Of a stretch of DNA of 41,332 nt, positions 1,923-41,332 are shown one piece after another. Position numbers and translations under genes: made by a program. The notes under the pieces were generated by a model that was given only the letters and a program-made list of their open reading frames with translations, had not been told where the DNA came from and did no database searches. Each line of letters starts with the position of its first letter. The first letter of the stretch is position 1. This DNA is from Syntrophobacter sp. SbD2 (GTDB lineage: Bacteria; Desulfobacterota; Binatia; UBA9968): assembly GCA_945889495.1 (NCBI GenBank), contig CAMDBU010000035.1:1-41332 (forward strand), given 5' to 3'.

Positions 1923-2783
1923 ATGCGAGTCGGAGTAGTGTTCCCGCAAACCGAAATCGGCGCAGATCCGTACTATATAAAAGACTTCGCCCAAGCCGCC
2001 GAAGAGCTGGGCTTTGCTCATATCTTGGCCTACGACCATGTGGTCGGCGCCAACCCGGCAAGCCGGCCCAATTGGCAAGCGCCCTACAGCCACTTAGACA
2101 TGTTTCACGAGCCGTTGGTTCTGTTCGGCTACTTGGCCGGCGTGACCGAGCGAATCGAATTGTGCACCGGCATCGTCATATTACCGCAGCGCCAAACCGT
2201 GCTGGTGGCCAAACAAGCGGCTTCGCTGGATGTCTTGAGCGGCGGCCGTTTACGTTTTGGCATCGGCATCGGCTGGAACGCCGTGGAATACGAAGCCCTG
2301 GGCGAAGAATTTAACAATCGCGGCCGGCGCAGCGAGGAGCAAATCGAACTCCTGCGCCAAATGTGGACGAAGCCGACGGTGACGTTCCAAGGCCGCTGGC
2401 ATAAAGTAACCGACGCAGGAATCAATCCGCTGCCAGTGCAGCGGCCGATCCCAATCTGGTTCGGCGGCAGCGACGAGCGCGCGCTGCGCAGGCTAGCGCG
2501 CCTGGGCGACGGCTGGTTCCCGCTCCTCGGACCCGACGACAAGTGCCGGGCGATGATTGATAAAGTTAGAAGTTTGGCGCAAGAAGCCGGTCGCGACCCG
2601 CAAGCGATAGGCATCGAAGGCCGCGTTCCCTACGGCCAAGGCTCGCCAGAGGAATGGCGCGCGACCATGGCGGCCTGGCAAAATCTCGGTGCCAGCCATG
2701 TGAGCTTCAATTCAATGAAGGCCGGCCTGAAGTCGCCGTCGGCGCATATCGAAGCGCTGCGCCAGTTCGCTAAATTGTGTTGA
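1923..2783 (+). CDS. LLM-class F420-dependent oxidoreductase (TIGR03619-like)
   Basis: A 286-residue luciferase-like TIM-barrel oxidoreductase. The N-terminus (MRVGVVFPQTEIGADP), the central LCTGIVILPQRQTVLVAKQA and RLRFGIGIGWNAVEYEALG segments and the IPIWFGGSDERALRRLARLGDGW segment (split here by position, roughly residues 190-212) are typical of the TIGR03619 F420-binding subgroup. Substrates of such enzymes are mostly unknown. An ATG 14 codons earlier is possible, but TTGGAGG sits nine bases before 1923, which decides the start. No cofactor-F420 gene is nearby, so F420 rather than FMN use is inferred from the subfamily. The gene converges on the selenoprotein gene, with a large hairpin between. 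Confidence 0.88.
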   Translation: MRVGVVFPQTEIGADPYYIKDFAQAAEELGFAHILAYDHVVGANPASRPNWQAPYSHLDMFHEPLVLFGYLAGVTERIELCTGIVILPQRQTVLVAKQAASLDVLSGGRLRFGIGIGWNAVEYEALGEEFNNRGRRSEEQIELLRQMWTKPTVTFQGRWHKVTDAGINPLPVQRPIPIWFGGSDERALRRLARLGDGWFPLLGPDDKCRAMIDKVRSLAQEAGRDPQAIGIEGRVPYGQGSPEEWRATMAAWQNLGASHVSFNSMKAGLKSPSAHIEALRQFAKLC

Positions 2784-2803
2784 GAGGGAATTAGGGATCA
2801 GAA

Positions 2804-2888
2804 TAAGATTAACCACGAAAAACACGAAGGGCACGAAGGGTTCGGATTGCCAGTTCGCCATTTCGTGTTTTTCGTGGTTAAAATCTTA
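2804..2888. repeat. large inverted repeat with CACGAA units between convergent genes
   Basis: The left arm (2804-2828) and right arm (2862-2888) pair over 25 bases with one two-base bulge, giving a long stem and a 33-base loop. The left arm and loop contain ACGAA units spaced about nine bases apart (CCACGAA, CACGAAGGG, CACGAAGGG). The right arm covers the stop codon of the selenoprotein gene. It has no U-tract, so classical termination is doubtful, but it could stall or protect both convergent transcripts. Similar short-period CACGAA arrays are widespread between genes of environmental bacteria; function unknown. Confidence 0.75.
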
Positions 2889-3119
2889 CAATCCCAGCAG
2901 CTCCAAGATCTTTAGTTGATCGAAGCCGACCACCGATTGGCCGTCGATGATCGTCACCGGCGTGCTTTGAAAGCCTTGGTCGATCAGTTCCTTCATCGCC
3001 GCCTTATCGGCGCGAACATTTTTCTCGACAAATTGAACGCCCTTTTGAGATAGAAACTCTACCTCTTTGTGACAGGGGCCTCAGCCAGGCTGGGTGTAGA
3101 CGACTACGGTAGTTGCCAT
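2886..3119 (-). CDS. glutaredoxin-like selenoprotein (in-frame UGA = Sec13)
   Basis: A 77-codon frame read through one UGA at 3081-3083. It translates as MATTVVVYTQPG-U-GPCHKEVEFL…, continuing uninterrupted to TAA at 2886. The fold is glutaredoxin/thioredoxin-like: beta strand TTVVVYTQPG, redox motif U13-G-P-C16, helix, second strand VQFVEKNV, then cis-proline STPVTIIDG (residues 52-60) and VVGFDQLKILELL at the end, a glutaredoxin hallmark. UGA occupies exactly the attacking cysteine position. GGAGGAA lies eight bases before the ATG, and an extended -10 promoter lies further upstream. A hairpin matching the bacterial SECIS pattern follows the UGA. Expected role: cytosolic thiol/selenol redox exchange. 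Alternatives are a sequencing error or a pseudogene from one TGC/TGT change, but the frame is otherwise intact and the SECIS-like fold argues for selenocysteine. SelA/B/C/D are not in this window. Confidence 0.85.
3047..3083 (-). promoter_or_regulatory. SECIS-like hairpin for selenocysteine insertion
   Basis: On the minus strand the UGA (3081-3083) is followed by 15 bases, then a perfect seven-pair stem GAGGUAG/CUAUCUC (3059-3065 with 3047-3053, one G-U pair) closing a five-base loop AGUUU. The loop G is the second loop base and lies 24 bases after the UGA. This matches the known bacterial SECIS rules: a small apical loop with G in its first two bases, and a loop about 16-37 bases after the UGA. 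A short lower helix (CCCU with AGGG) could extend it across an internal loop. Confidence 0.72.
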
Positions 3120-3151
3120 GTTCTCATTCCTCCATGCAATGAATTACCGCC

Positions 3152-3180
3152 CTTATAACACTTCGGATTTGCCGCCGCAA
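3152..3180 (-). promoter_or_regulatory. sigma-70 promoter with extended -10 for the selenoprotein gene
   Basis: Read on the minus strand, TTGCGG (3175-3180) and TATAAG (3152-3157) are separated by 17 bases, with a TG one base before the -10 hexamer (extended -10). Transcription would start about 25 bases before the ATG at 3119, leaving a short leader with the GGAGGAA ribosome binding site. Confidence 0.5.
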
Positions 3181-3244
3181 AACTGCGCCGGGGTAGTTTC
3201 AATGGATTCCATCGCCAGCCAAACATGGTAACTTGAGCGAGCTT

Positions 3245-5095
3245 ATGAGCAGCCGATTATTTATAAGTCGCCGCGCGATCAGTGCCACCGTCGCGATCAT
3301 CCTGGCCGCGCTGTTGGGTCTCGCCACTCGGCCCTGGGAACTGGCGGGCCAGGAAACCACGCCGGCCGACGAGCTGTCGAGCCATGCCAAGTTTTTAGCG
3401 TCACCGGCCCTCGAAGGGCGCGGCACGGGCAGCGCCGGCATCAAGCTGGCGCGCGATTACATCGCCGCCGAGTTCGCCAAATACGGCCTGCGCCCCGGCG
3501 GCGACAACGGCGGCTATCTCCAGCGCTTCGAGGTCGCGGTCGGCGTCAAAGTAAAAACACCGACCAACTTGGCGCTGGGCGAAGAGCCGCCGCTGAATTT
3601 GAACGACAGCTGGGTGCCGCTAGGCATGGCCGCCTCCGGCCAAGCCGAAGGCGAAGTGGTCTTTGCCGGCTACGGTATCAGCGCCAAAGAATATGGCTAC
3701 GACGACTACGACGGCGTCGACGTCAAGGGCAAGATCGTCGTCGTATTGCGCTACGAGCCACCGCCCAAGAACGATCGAAGCCCGTTTAGAAAATCCCCCG
3801 ACTACTCGAGCCACGCCGCGCTGCGCACCAAGGCCAACAACGCCCGCGATCATGGCGCCGTCGCCATGATCCTGGTGGACTTGGACGGTCGCGGCGATGG
3901 CCAGAGCGAACTTTTGTCATTGCGTAGCAGCCTGTGGCGCAGCGGCAATAGTTTACTCGCCGGGCAAATCACCCGACAATTGGCTGAGAGTTGGTTCGCC
4001 AACCATGGCGTGGCGCTCAAAGAGCTCAAAGCGCGCATCGACCGCGACGAGCAACCGGCGTCGCGGCCGTTGGCTGGCGCCAAAATCTCCTTGCAGGTGA
4101 CTCTGGAAGAGGAACGGGCGCCGGCGGACAATGTCGTCGGGATTCTTCCCGGCAAAGCACCTCAGGAGCAGCAGGAATATCTGGTCATTGGCGCCCACTA
4201 CGATCATCTTGGACTTGGCCACTTCGGTGCGCGCGATCAAAGCACTGCCGGCATGATCCACTATGGCGCTGACGACAACGCTTCGGGCACCGCGGTGCTG
4301 CTTCAGGTGGCGCGCCGTTTGAGCCAGATCGAGCCCAAACCGGCGCGCGGAATTATTTTCGTCGCCTTCTCCGCCGAAGAGTTGGGACTCCATGGCTCGC
4401 GCCATTTCGTCAGCCAATGGCCGCGGTTGAGCACGATTAAAGCGATGATCAACCTAGACATGGTCGGCCGCTTGCGTGACGACCGGATCACAGTCTTCGG
4501 CACCCGCTCAGCGCCGCCATTTGAAGCCATCGTTGCCAGCGCCGCCCGCCAGCTAGAGTTGAAAGTTAACCCGGCCGACGGCGTCGGCCCGAGCGACCAT
4601 CTATCGTTTTACAACAAGCAAATTCCCGTGCTGCATTTTTTCACCGGCAGCCATGGCGACTACCACCGTCCCGGCGACACCTGGGACAAACTCAACATTG
4701 AAGGCATGGGGCGCATCGCCGACTTGGTCATCGCCTCAGCAGTGGCCATCGCCGCGCTGCCAGAACCGCCTGGCTTCACGAGCTTACCATCGCGCCCGAC
4801 TTCGGCGGATAGCGCTGAGCGCAGGGTTGGCGGCGTCTATCTCGGGGTTATTCCCGAGTACAGCCGCAATGTTGACGGCGTACTATTGGCCGGCGTGGCG
4901 CCGGGTAGCCCGGCTGCGGCGGCGGGGCTGCGCGAGGGCGATGTGATCGTTCAACTGGCGCAACGCAAAATCAGCAACATCGAGGATCTTACAGACGCGC
5001 TGGCGAGCCACAAACCGGCCGATCAAGTAACCATCACGGTGCAGCGTGGCGCGACCAACGCGGCGCTGCCGACCACTCTGGGCGCGCGCCGTTAG
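3245..5095 (+). CDS. exported M28-family peptidase with PA and PDZ domains
   Basis: A 616-residue zinc aminopeptidase-type protein (M28) predicted to act in the periplasm. It opens with a signal sequence (basic MSSRLFISRR, then a hydrophobic run to about residue 30). A protease-associated insert follows (about residues 125-280, VVFAGYGISAKEYGYDDYDG), then the M28 core: HYDH near residue 318, GADDNASG near 343, AEE near 378, LDMVGR, and SDHLSF with the late GDYHRPGDTWD histidine. A C-terminal PDZ domain (about 525-616) probably binds peptide ends or partners. I start at the ATG at 3245; a TTG four codons earlier is possible, and neither has a strong ribosome binding site. It is divergent from the selenoprotein gene. 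Domain calls are firm, substrate unknown. Confidence 0.9.
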   Translation: MSSRLFISRRAISATVAIILAALLGLATRPWELAGQETTPADELSSHAKFLASPALEGRGTGSAGIKLARDYIAAEFAKYGLRPGGDNGGYLQRFEVAVGVKVKTPTNLALGEEPPLNLNDSWVPLGMAASGQAEGEVVFAGYGISAKEYGYDDYDGVDVKGKIVVVLRYEPPPKNDRSPFRKSPDYSSHAALRTKANNARDHGAVAMILVDLDGRGDGQSELLSLRSSLWRSGNSLLAGQITRQLAESWFANHGVALKELKARIDRDEQPASRPLAGAKISLQVTLEEERAPADNVVGILPGKAPQEQQEYLVIGAHYDHLGLGHFGARDQSTAGMIHYGADDNASGTAVLLQVARRLSQIEPKPARGIIFVAFSAEELGLHGSRHFVSQWPRLSTIKAMINLDMVGRLRDDRITVFGTRSAPPFEAIVASAARQLELKVNPADGVGPSDHLSFYNKQIPVLHFFTGSHGDYHRPGDTWDKLNIEGMGRIADLVIASAVAIAALPEPPGFTSLPSRPTSADSAERRVGGVYLGVIPEYSRNVDGVLLAGVAPGSPAAAAGLREGDVIVQLAQRKISNIEDLTDALASHKPADQVTITVQRGATNAALPTTLGARR

Positions 5096-14897: not shown

Positions 14898-15962
14898 ATG
14901 CTAGTGCAATGTCCGAGCTGCCGCACCACCTACAAGGTCGCCGATGAAGTCGTCAAAGGCGCCGCGCCGGCATTTCGCTGCTCGCGCTGCAAGCACACTT
15001 TCGAGCTCGCAGGCGCGGAAACCGCGCCCGTGATGGGCGAAAAGCCCGCAGCCAACGACCAGGTCGCGGCTGATAAGCCGGAAGAGCGCGAGCTCAGTTT
15101 CAGTTTCGCGCCGGCCACCGCGCCGGCGCCGGAAAGCCACAGCGACGCCGCGCCGGCGGTCGACCCAATCGTCACCATGACCCAACCGCCGGACGTCGAA
15201 GCGAAGATTACCGCAACCGAACAATGGTCGGTGAATCCGCCGCCGCCGGACCAGCCAGAGGACCGGCCGTTTACCATGACGCCAACGGCGGCCAATCAAA
15301 CACCGGAAAAGATCATCGACATCCCCAAGGATTTCGACGCCGGAGAACGCGACTTCCCAGCTCCTCCGGCGCGAGATCATGCCGACAATTCCACCAACAT
15401 CCTGGCGATGACTTCCTACATCGATCAGCGCGCCTCGATCCGGCCCTATTTGAGTTTATTCGCGCTGCTGCTGATCGGCTTTTCCCTGCTGGCGGCGATG
15501 ACCCATGCCAAACCGGCGGCGATGGAGAACCTGGTCAAGCAAATCCCCTTCATCGGCGCTACGGTGCTGAAAAACAATCACCTGAAAGACGGCATCCTGC
15601 TGCAATCCCTGCGCACCAGCTATCAGAGCATCCAGGGCAACCGCGAGGTCCTGGTGCTGAGCGGCGTGGCGATCAATCAAAATCCAGTGGTGATCCGCGA
15701 AGTCAAAGTGACCGGCAAAGTATACAATACCGACGGCAAGGAGCTCGAGCGCCAAACCATCTGGATCGGCAACACGATTTCGCCCAAGATCATCCGCGGC
15801 ATGACCGCCGAGGATATTCCCCACTTGCAGGATCTAAAACCGCTCAAGACCTTCGAGCTGCCGCCGGGCGACTCGATCCCATTTACCATGGTATTTTTAA
15901 AGCCGGCCAAGCAAGCCAAGGACTTCAGTATGGAAGTGCTGCTCGCCGACGGCGAAGTTTGA
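14898..15962 (+). CDS. zinc-ribbon (MJ0042) and DUF3426 membrane protein
   Basis: A 354-residue protein. The N-terminal MJ0042-type zinc ribbon (CPSC…CSRC, residues 5-31) is followed by a long proline/alanine-rich linker, one membrane helix (PYLSLFALLLIGFSLLAAM, about residues 181-199) and a C-terminal DUF3426 domain (VLVLSGVAINQNPVVIREVK, LPPGDSIPFTMVFLKP). This architecture is common in Delta- and Gammaproteobacteria. Its function is unknown; a link between a cytoplasmic zinc-ribbon and an external immunoglobulin-like domain is inferred. Convergent with tatA, 11 bases apart. Confidence 0.83.
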   Translation: MLVQCPSCRTTYKVADEVVKGAAPAFRCSRCKHTFELAGAETAPVMGEKPAANDQVAADKPEERELSFSFAPATAPAPESHSDAAPAVDPIVTMTQPPDVEAKITATEQWSVNPPPPDQPEDRPFTMTPTAANQTPEKIIDIPKDFDAGERDFPAPPARDHADNSTNILAMTSYIDQRASIRPYLSLFALLLIGFSLLAAMTHAKPAAMENLVKQIPFIGATVLKNNHLKDGILLQSLRTSYQSIQGNREVLVLSGVAINQNPVVIREVKVTGKVYNTDGKELERQTIWIGNTISPKIIRGMTAEDIPHLQDLKPLKTFELPPGDSIPFTMVFLKPAKQAKDFSMEVLLADGEV

Positions 15963-15973
15963 TAGGTTCGGAA

Positions 15974-25175: not shown

Positions 25176-25391
25176 TCAAACAGGCGTGTCCACCGCCTCA
25201 AGACGGTTGATATAAGCATCAATATCGATCTGTAGTTTGCGGATTTCGTCCACCGGCCCCTCCGCCATGATGGCGAAGTTTCTTGGATTCTTGGGAAAGA
25301 TATCCGCCCGCAAGCCGTCGATGGCTCGACACAAGGACTGAATCTGTTCGATAGCTTGCCGCAGTTGCGCTTCGCTATTTATCGTCGACAT
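25176..25391 (-). CDS. small hypothetical protein
   Basis: A 71-residue, mostly helical protein (EAQLRQAIEQIQSLCRAIDG… RKLQIDIDAYINRLEA) that may form a coiled-coil pair of helices. No known domain recognised. It starts at an ATG and is isolated between the ligB-type gene (convergent) and the amidohydrolase. Composition looks coding, but a non-coding frame cannot be ruled out. Confidence 0.55.
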   Translation of the reverse strand: MSTINSEAQLRQAIEQIQSLCRAIDGLRADIFPKNPRNFAIMAEGPVDEIRKLQIDIDAYINRLEAVDTPV

Positions 25392-25485
25392 ATCCCGTAG
25401 ATCTCGATACTAGCCTAGCCCAGTTGAACATCTCATCCTCGTTTCTTCGAGTACAAAAAACTATTTCTCGCCAACAACATCCCCC

Positions 25486-26412
25486 TCACCCCCACCCCAA
25501 CCTCACCAACAACGCGCGCCCCATGATCCAGTCTTTGTCGTCCTCGGACAGAAAATTTAGCTCCTCGGTGAAATGGCTGATGCGCTGGCGGTAGGTCGCT
25601 TTGGCGAAGGAGTTGGTGATGTCGGTGCCCCAGTAACAGCGGCGCGGGCCGTAGGCGTCGAACAGCCGGCGGATATGCGGCGTGACATCGCGGAACGGAT
25701 AGGGCTCGGCGGAAAACAGCGGCGCCGAGGACAGCTTCACCGAGACGTTGGGATACTTGGCCAGCGCCGCCGACTGTGCGATGGCGGCGGGCACCGCTTT
25801 GTGCTGCACGGTCTCCGACGACACGCCCATATGATCGATGATCAGCGCCAGTTGCGGATGGCGCTCGGCGATGCGAGCGAACTGGTGGCTCTGGCCGGTG
25901 GTGAGATACATCACCGGGATACCAGCCTTTTCCGCCGCCGGCCAAAACCAATCCGCGGTGCCGTCGGTGAGCCAAGCGGCTTGCGCGCCGGCGATGTTCA
26001 AGCGAATGCCGAGCACGCCGGGCTGCGCGCGCCAGGCTTGCAAGCGCCGCGCGTTGGCCGGATTGTCGAGGGCGATGCGGCCCATGACGGCGAAGCGGCC
26101 GGGATAACGGCGCGCTGCCTCTTGACCATAATCAAGCCGCTCGCCGTCCAAACTCGGCGGCACGATGACGATCCGATCGACGCCCGCCTCCTCCATCAAC
26201 GGCACCACCCGCTCGATGGTGAACGGTTCAGGCAGCTGCGGCCGAGAGCCTACCACCCAGGGCCGCTCCGGCGTCGACGCCTTCCACATATGGACTTGCG
26301 CGTCTACGATGACCCGGCGGCGCCCCGGCTGCGCCGCGGCGCAGGACCAACCGCCAGCCGCGGCGACGGTGGCGGCCAACGAGCCTTTGAGAAATTCACG
26401 ACGGGTTAACAT
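25486..26412 (-). CDS. Tat-exported amidohydrolase (amidohydrolase_2 family)
   Basis: A 308-residue metal-dependent TIM-barrel hydrolase of the amidohydro_2 group. A Tat signal opens it: TRREFLKGSLAATVAAAGGW, cut near SCAAAQ. Metal and active-site features: DAQVHMW at strand 1, LIIDHMGVS near the middle, and YWGTDIT at the end of the barrel. Members include decarboxylases and lactonases; the true reaction is unknown. No lipobox is certain, though WSCAAA could act as one. Export would depend on the Tat system whose TatA is encoded at 15974. Confidence 0.83.
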   Translation of the reverse strand: MLTRREFLKGSLAATVAAAGGWSCAAAQPGRRRVIVDAQVHMWKASTPERPWVVGSRPQLPEPFTIERVVPLMEEAGVDRIVIVPPSLDGERLDYGQEAARRYPGRFAVMGRIALDNPANARRLQAWRAQPGVLGIRLNIAGAQAAWLTDGTADWFWPAAEKAGIPVMYLTTGQSHQFARIAERHPQLALIIDHMGVSSETVQHKAVPAAIAQSAALAKYPNVSVKLSSAPLFSAEPYPFRDVTPHIRRLFDAYGPRRCYWGTDITNSFAKATYRQRISHFTEELNFLSEDDKDWIMGRALLVRLGWG

Positions 26413-40910: not shown

Positions 40911-41332
40911 GAGAACCTCCTCGTGAACCGAAACATTCGCGTTTGAGAACGAACCAGAGTCGATGATGGATGGCTGAAACTAGAACACAGTGAAAAGCAG
41001 GCGGGGTGGGCTGGATAGCGCGGCGAGCGAAACTGACATCGGGTAATGTTTTAATTTGCATCGTGCCGCGCGTCATCGTCCCGCTGCCGGAACGTCAAAA
41101 AAAATTAGCGGCCACCAACTGCGGACCGCCATTTCGGATAACCAGCAGGTAACTTATACAACAGACGCAAACGGCCCGTCAAGCTATATAGTGCCTGACA
41201 GAAAACCCCGTTTTTTTAGAACCCGGCCTGCTAATTTTTGAGCGCAACACGCGGGTTTCGTGTTTTCATGTGCGAACGGCAAAGTTTTGGAGTTATTGCG
41301 AATCCCCACACGCGTTGCGTCAACTTCTGGAC
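40911..41332. other. gene-free right end of the window
   Basis: This 422-base stretch holds the upstream region of carD and nothing else I can support. Short open frames are unconvincing. AT-rich stretches (41095-41106, 41209-41241) contain a distant AAAAATTAGC/GCTAATTTTT pair, and no promoter stands out clearly. Confidence 0.6.

Follow-up and report, generated by a model that had tools for sequence, protein, structure and literature searches.

A predicted selenocysteine-containing glutaredoxin encoded across an in-frame UGA in a draft genome of the class Binatia

We analysed a stretch of 41,332 nucleotides (hereafter the window) corresponding to positions 1 to 41,332 of contig CAMDBU010000035.1 of Syntrophobacter sp. 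SbD2 (assembly GCA_945889495.1; Desulfobacterota, Binatia), whose draft genome comprises 5.64 Mb in 239 contigs and is 95.6% complete. The minus strand of the window carries a frame of 77 codons that runs from an ATG (3119-3117) to a TAA (2888-2886) with a sole in-frame UGA at residue 13 (3083-3081; Table 1). An earlier note on this DNA had described such a frame with one UGA at the first redox position, and we recovered it with the coordinates and codons given there. Translated with UGA as selenocysteine (Sec, U), the N-terminus of the protein reads MATTVVVYTQPG-U-GPCHKEVEFLSQKG. A standard gene caller would be expected to stop this gene after 12 residues or to miss it altogether.

Table 1. 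Features of the predicted Sec-glutaredoxin locus, in coordinates of the window.
Feature	Position	Strand	Basis
CDS, 77-aa predicted Sec-glutaredoxin, UGA13 as putative Sec, TAA stop	2886..3119	-	Frame, PF00462 match, homologue codons, SECIS test
UGA codon for predicted Sec13, first residue of the UGPC motif	3081..3083	-	Frame; TGA, TGC or TGT only in 60 non-duplicate loci
TGT codon for Cys16, second residue of the UGPC pair	3072..3074	-	C16 invariant in 57 aligned homologues
Predicted bacterial SECIS hairpin GAGGUAGAGUUUCUAUCUC, with a stem of 8 bp that starts 15 nt past the UGA and a GUU loop closed by A-U	3047..3065	-	Pairing, covariation, folding
Ribosome binding site GGAGGAA	3127..3133	-	Sequence; GGAGG in 24/28 near-orthologous loci
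Extended -10 element TGTTATAAG	3152..3160	-	Sequence; TGnTATAA in 11/28, TGnTAT[A/G]A in 19/28 near-orthologous loci
M28-family peptidase with PA and PDZ domains, divergent neighbour, outside the Sec gene	3233..5095	+	Domain matches

The upstream signals were compared in 28 near-orthologous loci, a set from which six duplicates had been taken out and in which the window's own locus is counted. The ribosome binding site proposed in the earlier note is present, and 24 of these loci keep GGAGG no more than 25 nt from the start. The extended -10 promoter proposed alongside it stood up less well: the element itself is there, but TGnTATAA within 75 nt of the start was found in 11 loci and the looser TGnTAT[A/G]A in 19, and on the minus strand a consensus scan of 2780-3260 returned no complete sigma-70 promoter. 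Conservation is thus good for the ribosome binding site and partial for the -10 element.

The gene stands alone, with a luciferase-like monooxygenase gene (1881-2783) convergent to it. Within the window's family the divergent M28 gene was recovered in 17 of 19 loci, and in the remaining two the contig stops 739 and 328 bases upstream; in nine loci of two sister families it was not found within about 1.5 kb upstream. Directly after the glutaredoxin stop lies a long inverted repeat with CACGAA-type units (2805-2887, TTAACCACGAAAAACACGAAA ... TTTCGTGTTTTTCGTGGTTAA), which may be a repeat element or mark where transcription ends; its 17-mer ACCACGAAAAACACGAA occurs in none of 112 other loci. The five Rfam matches in 2700-3300 were all to microRNA models, far under their cut-offs, and all fell on the repeat (2794-2895), and we rejected them.

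With Cys standing for Sec, the read-through protein matched the Pfam family Glutaredoxin (PF00462) at 49.1 bits (cut-off 22.9), and this match spans the UGA. An AlphaFold2 model built from a 57-row alignment (pLDDT 90.8) has the strand and helix order of a glutaredoxin and places residue 13 immediately before a helix formed by residues 14-25. The protein thus combines a thioredoxin-like fold, a U/CxxC motif at helix 1 and a conserved proline (P54) before strand 3. Five residues are invariant in the 57 aligned proteins, namely 13 (Cys standing for Sec), 16, 23, 54 and 65. The top Foldseek match of the model was 7c10, the dithiol form of cGrx1 (TM 0.93/0.96, 51% identity), and the best solved structures by sequence were 7c10 and 7c12, both aligning without gaps from residues 1-77 to residues 1-77. 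A protein search of the window's own genome recovered the gene itself along with a single distant paralogue of the Cys type (29% identity).

None of the NCBIfam models reached its cut-off with the 77-residue protein. The best profile was TIGR02196 GlrX_YruB (70.7 bits, cut-off 88.55), followed by TIGR02194 NrdH (50.5 bits, cut-off 85.75), and the four profiles named Uxx-star also scored under their cut-offs (NF041212, 44.1/66; NF041114, 23.3/72; NF041211, 32.4/100; NF047338, 26.1/97). NrdH receives electrons from thioredoxin reductase, and the second rank of its profile, together with the closeness in fold of NrdH structures (query TM 0.84 for 4fiw and 0.86 for 4hs1 in Foldseek), raises the possibility that the Sec protein functions like an NrdH-type redoxin, with thioredoxin reductase as its electron source, and not like a glutaredoxin that depends on glutathione. 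We consider this rather unlikely, though it deserves more weight than any other alternative discussed below: the top profile is that of a YruB-type glutaredoxin, itself also under its cut-off, and the top structure is cGrx1.

Searching for homologues at E<=1e-8, we obtained matches in 51 of the 395 genomes of the phylum and in 54 of the 148 genomes of the class. A match to the glutaredoxin was present in 22 of the 25 draft genomes of the window's family, so that nearly all of this one family keeps a predicted Sec-dependent glutaredoxin. Sequence was extracted for part of the listed matches, giving 68 loci that include the window's own and its distant paralogue; for the remaining matches the search output is limited to "1 TGA" or "none". 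Of the 68 loci, 66 allowed residue 13 to be placed, and these have TGA in 51, TGC in eight, TGT in seven and no other codon. The earlier note had suggested checking whether Cys or Sec fills this position in homologues, and after removal of six duplicates the answer was one or the other in every case (TGA 45, TGC 8, TGT 7; n=60, window included). The frame stays open past the TGA in all 45 of the TGA loci, the other 15 carrying Cys codons. The 26 loci L086-L112 minus L106, whose proteins are 64-95% identical to that of the window, all have TGA, and TGA is present in every near orthologue that has residue 13.

In a tree of 58 proteins, the window's order and the more distant L025, L060 and L113 formed a 29-row group in which all members are of the Sec type, with support 92/87. 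In the rest of the tree Sec and Cys alternate; six changes between the two, in either direction, are needed, of which at least four are forced by well-supported branches, although the tree as a whole is built on few columns.

Downstream of the UGA lies a hairpin that was absent from the earlier note and that we regard as the strongest element of the case. Columns 16-23 after the UGA pair with columns 27-34, in the layout GAGGUAGA-GUU-UCUAUCUC. The bSECIS model, as laid out in section 5 of PMC13188914, has G first in the loop followed by U and an energy limit of -7.5 kcal/mol. The hairpin fits this description in having G then U in a loop located 23 nt past the UGA. The free energy of the 19-mer alone is -7.3 kcal/mol, narrowly short of the model's limit, and that of a 52-nt stretch is -14.2 kcal/mol. 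Compared with shuffled sequences, the 52-nt stretch is uninformative (z -0.84, with 43 of 200 shuffles folding as well), and the z of -3.56 for the 19-nt hairpin alone applies to a hairpin picked after the fact. Eight pairs also arise in 2.7% of synonymous recodings of the window sequence, so that this single sequence is weak evidence and it is the comparison that carries the case for a SECIS element.

We compared stem pairing in homologues with a null of 2000 random synonymous recodings of the same proteins. Pairs form in 307 of the 320 stem cells of the 40 distinct Sec sequences, where recoding yields 190.7 (sd 7.9, maximum 218), a difference whose z is not a probability since the sequences are related. 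In the 15 distinct Cys sequences, by contrast, 53 of 120 stem cells pair and the synonymous null gives 53.2. All eight stem pairs are intact in 28/40 Sec sequences and in 1/15 Cys sequences. Third positions are also constrained over codons 18-24, with an entropy of 0.42 bits in 34 near-orthologous loci (duplicates included) versus 1.15 bits in 39 later codons, these being the codons after residue 28 whose commonest residue is present in more than 20 loci.

A covariation test on 20 of the 40 Sec sequences pointed in the same direction. The fraction of paired cells was 94.4% (83.2% in shuffles), cells changed on both sides numbered 16 (4.5 in shuffles) and the covariation score was 0.391 (0.182 in shuffles), and none of 500 shuffles equalled any of these three values. 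Shifting the stem partner lowered the pairing to 34-75%. Two counts did not exceed those of shuffles in the same 20 sequences, namely pairs with double changes (2) and further pair types (8). As judged from these sequence comparisons, the SECIS hairpin is under RNA-level selection in UGA genes and not in Cys genes.

One Cys gene has nonetheless kept the complete stem: the Synergistaceae Cys-glutaredoxin at L061:4001-4216, with TGT at residue 13, retains all eight SECIS stem pairs and looks as though Sec gave way to Cys recently, leaving a remnant SECIS. In L033 and L048, six of the eight stem pairs are retained.

The interrupted frame could have a more ordinary explanation, with the UGA acting as a genuine stop or arising from a sequencing error, and the gene being a pseudogene or one for a Cys glutaredoxin. 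Single-base errors do occur in draft genomes such as this one of 239 contigs, and some relatives with a UGA gene have no visible Sec genes. Against this, TGA occupies the same codon in three quarters of the non-duplicate loci, the frame downstream of it is conserved as protein, and selection on the hairpin is seen in UGA genes but not in Cys genes, so we regard a stop or an error as highly improbable. More specifically, a misread TGC or TGT at codon 13 is very unlikely, because TGA is found in every near orthologue with residue 13 and because the hairpin is under selection in TGA genes but not in Cys genes.

The earlier note had supposed that the organism makes selenocysteine and had named the genes to look for, and all four were found in the window's genome. 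The tRNA-Sec scored 73.1 bits (cut-off 47) and was called tRNA-SeC with anticodon tca by ARAGORN, which assigned the seven weaker matches to the tRNA-Sec family to tRNA-Ser (three), tRNA-Leu (three) and tRNA-Gly (one). The genes selA (614.4 bits), selB (411.2 bits) and selD (377.2 bits) are consecutive on contig C26 and all over their cut-offs. The selD gene (L019, G000:C26:37215-38141) is a selenoprotein gene too and contains one in-frame TGA, within SAGUAAK; selenophosphate synthetase is listed with the motif UxxK in PMC13188914. Taken together, the gene almost certainly encodes a small glutaredoxin in which the UGA at codon 13 would be translated as selenocysteine.

The distribution of Sec genes in the draft genomes of relatives was less uniform. 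In the window's family, selA was over cut-off in 22 of 25 genomes, the exceptions being G198, G517 and G528, and in the class it was over cut-off in 123 of 148. In the phylum set, 29 of 31 genomes with a UGA match and 17 of 20 without one had selA over cut-off, so that its co-occurrence with the gene adds little. The loci L053-L061 lead to nine further genomes, seven of which hold a UGA gene (L053-L058, L060). Among these seven, five (G396, G397, G398, G400 and G402) have a tRNA-Sec over cut-off that scores more than 70 bits, selB was over cut-off in three (G396, G400 and G402) and a partial selB of 203.3 bits was present in G397; in G395 and G399 neither tRNA-Sec nor selB was over cut-off. 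G388 (73% complete) has a UGA gene, tRNA-Sec and selB, without selA.

One genome that departs from expectation is G198, a member of the window's family given as 100% complete. It has three UGA-containing glutaredoxin-like matches (on C19, C137 and C33), and a genome search found none of selA, selB and tRNA-Sec over cut-off in it. Such a genome would suit a scenario in which UGA is reassigned, or read as another residue such as Trp or Cys, without the Sec pathway. We find this scenario scarcely credible: the UGA glutaredoxin of G198 (L024) retains all eight SECIS pairs, selA is over cut-off in three other genomes of its genus (G525-G527), other genes of the window terminate in UGA (for instance at 2781-2783) and the Sec pathway is complete in the window's own genome. 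The simplest explanation for the absence of Sec genes from some relatives is assembly gaps and missing contigs, since three genus-mates of G198 have selA and several selA and selB matches end at contig ends. There is only a very slight chance that some relatives (G198, perhaps along with the genomes that carry L053 and L057) have kept the UGA glutaredoxin and its SECIS without a recognisable SelB or tRNA-Sec (in G198 also without SelA) and use another decoding route.

Returning to selenocysteine insertion as the preferred reading, the expected course of events can be drawn from established Sec biology and from cGrx1. SelB carrying Sec-tRNA-Sec would bind the hairpin and Sec would be inserted at UGA13. 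By analogy with cGrx1, Sec13 would then attack an oxidised partner, Cys16 would resolve the intermediate, and the protein would be recycled by a reductase or by a thiol, for example glutathione.

Clostridium oremlandii, the source of cGrx1, is a Firmicute, unlike the host of the window. According to PMC7642778, cGrx1 of strain OhILAs is natively a selenoprotein (PDB 7c10, 7c12 and 7c13) whose catalytic selenocysteine was swapped for Cys for the structures, Cys13 being catalytic and Cys16 resolving; a selenoprotein MsrA is proposed there as its partner in C. oremlandii. The nearest structure to our protein is thus the Cys form of a protein that, on this description, has Sec at the same residue number, and its resolving Cys16 likewise carries the number found in the window's protein. 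Since residues 13 and 16 of cGrx1 are called catalytic and resolving in the same text, we infer that Sec13 is probably the attacking residue. The two proteins, alignable without gaps over residues 1-77 and 51% identical in the fold match, differ in their motif, which is of the UPHC type in cGrx1 (CPHC in the Cys form) and UGPC in the window's protein.

The background stated in the earlier note, namely that bacterial glutaredoxin selenoproteins with UxxC exist, agrees with the literature. Sec-glutaredoxins of Geobacter sulfurreducens, Alkaliphilus metalliredigenes and Moorella thermoacetica are tabulated in PMC1794560, and Glutaredoxin PF00462 with UxxC appears under "Experimentally verified" in Table 1 of PMC13188914. 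The window's protein resembles these, by their published description, in belonging to PF00462 and in having a UxxC motif with Sec for the first Cys. The NCBIfam Uxx-star profiles (NF041212, NF041114, NF041211 and NF047338) describe related glutaredoxin-like (seleno)proteins, but family 1 is listed with UxxT in PMC13188914, whereas the window's protein has UxxC. In the literature searched, Binatota occurred together with selenocysteine only inside a reference list, nothing was found for Binatia with selenoprotein, and the motif UGPC was in none of the listed papers on selenoprotein glutaredoxins.

Sec-glutaredoxins are therefore already established, and the window's protein adds a member to them, because the kind is already listed and no NCBIfam cut-off was reached. 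Its presence here would be no surprise for a selenoprotein specialist. The value of the locus lies in the comparison, in which one protein family has both Sec and Cys forms and a SECIS that tracks the codon, a clean set for a study of Sec gain and loss.

The window contains 12 other frames that read through a single UGA. Ten of these were scanned with Pfam (14898-15965 and 41056-41332 lay outside the scan), and a domain crossing the UGA was found in 0 of the 10. One of the other frames, 25375-26412, resembles a selenoprotein gene by its letters: the UGA that closes an amidohydrolase gene reads UGGC, a UxxC motif, and is followed by an open tail of 36 residues. We rejected this frame as a selenoprotein candidate since U309 falls beyond the Amidohydro_2 domain, which ends at residue 298, and no domain was matched in the tail; its UGA is probably a true stop.
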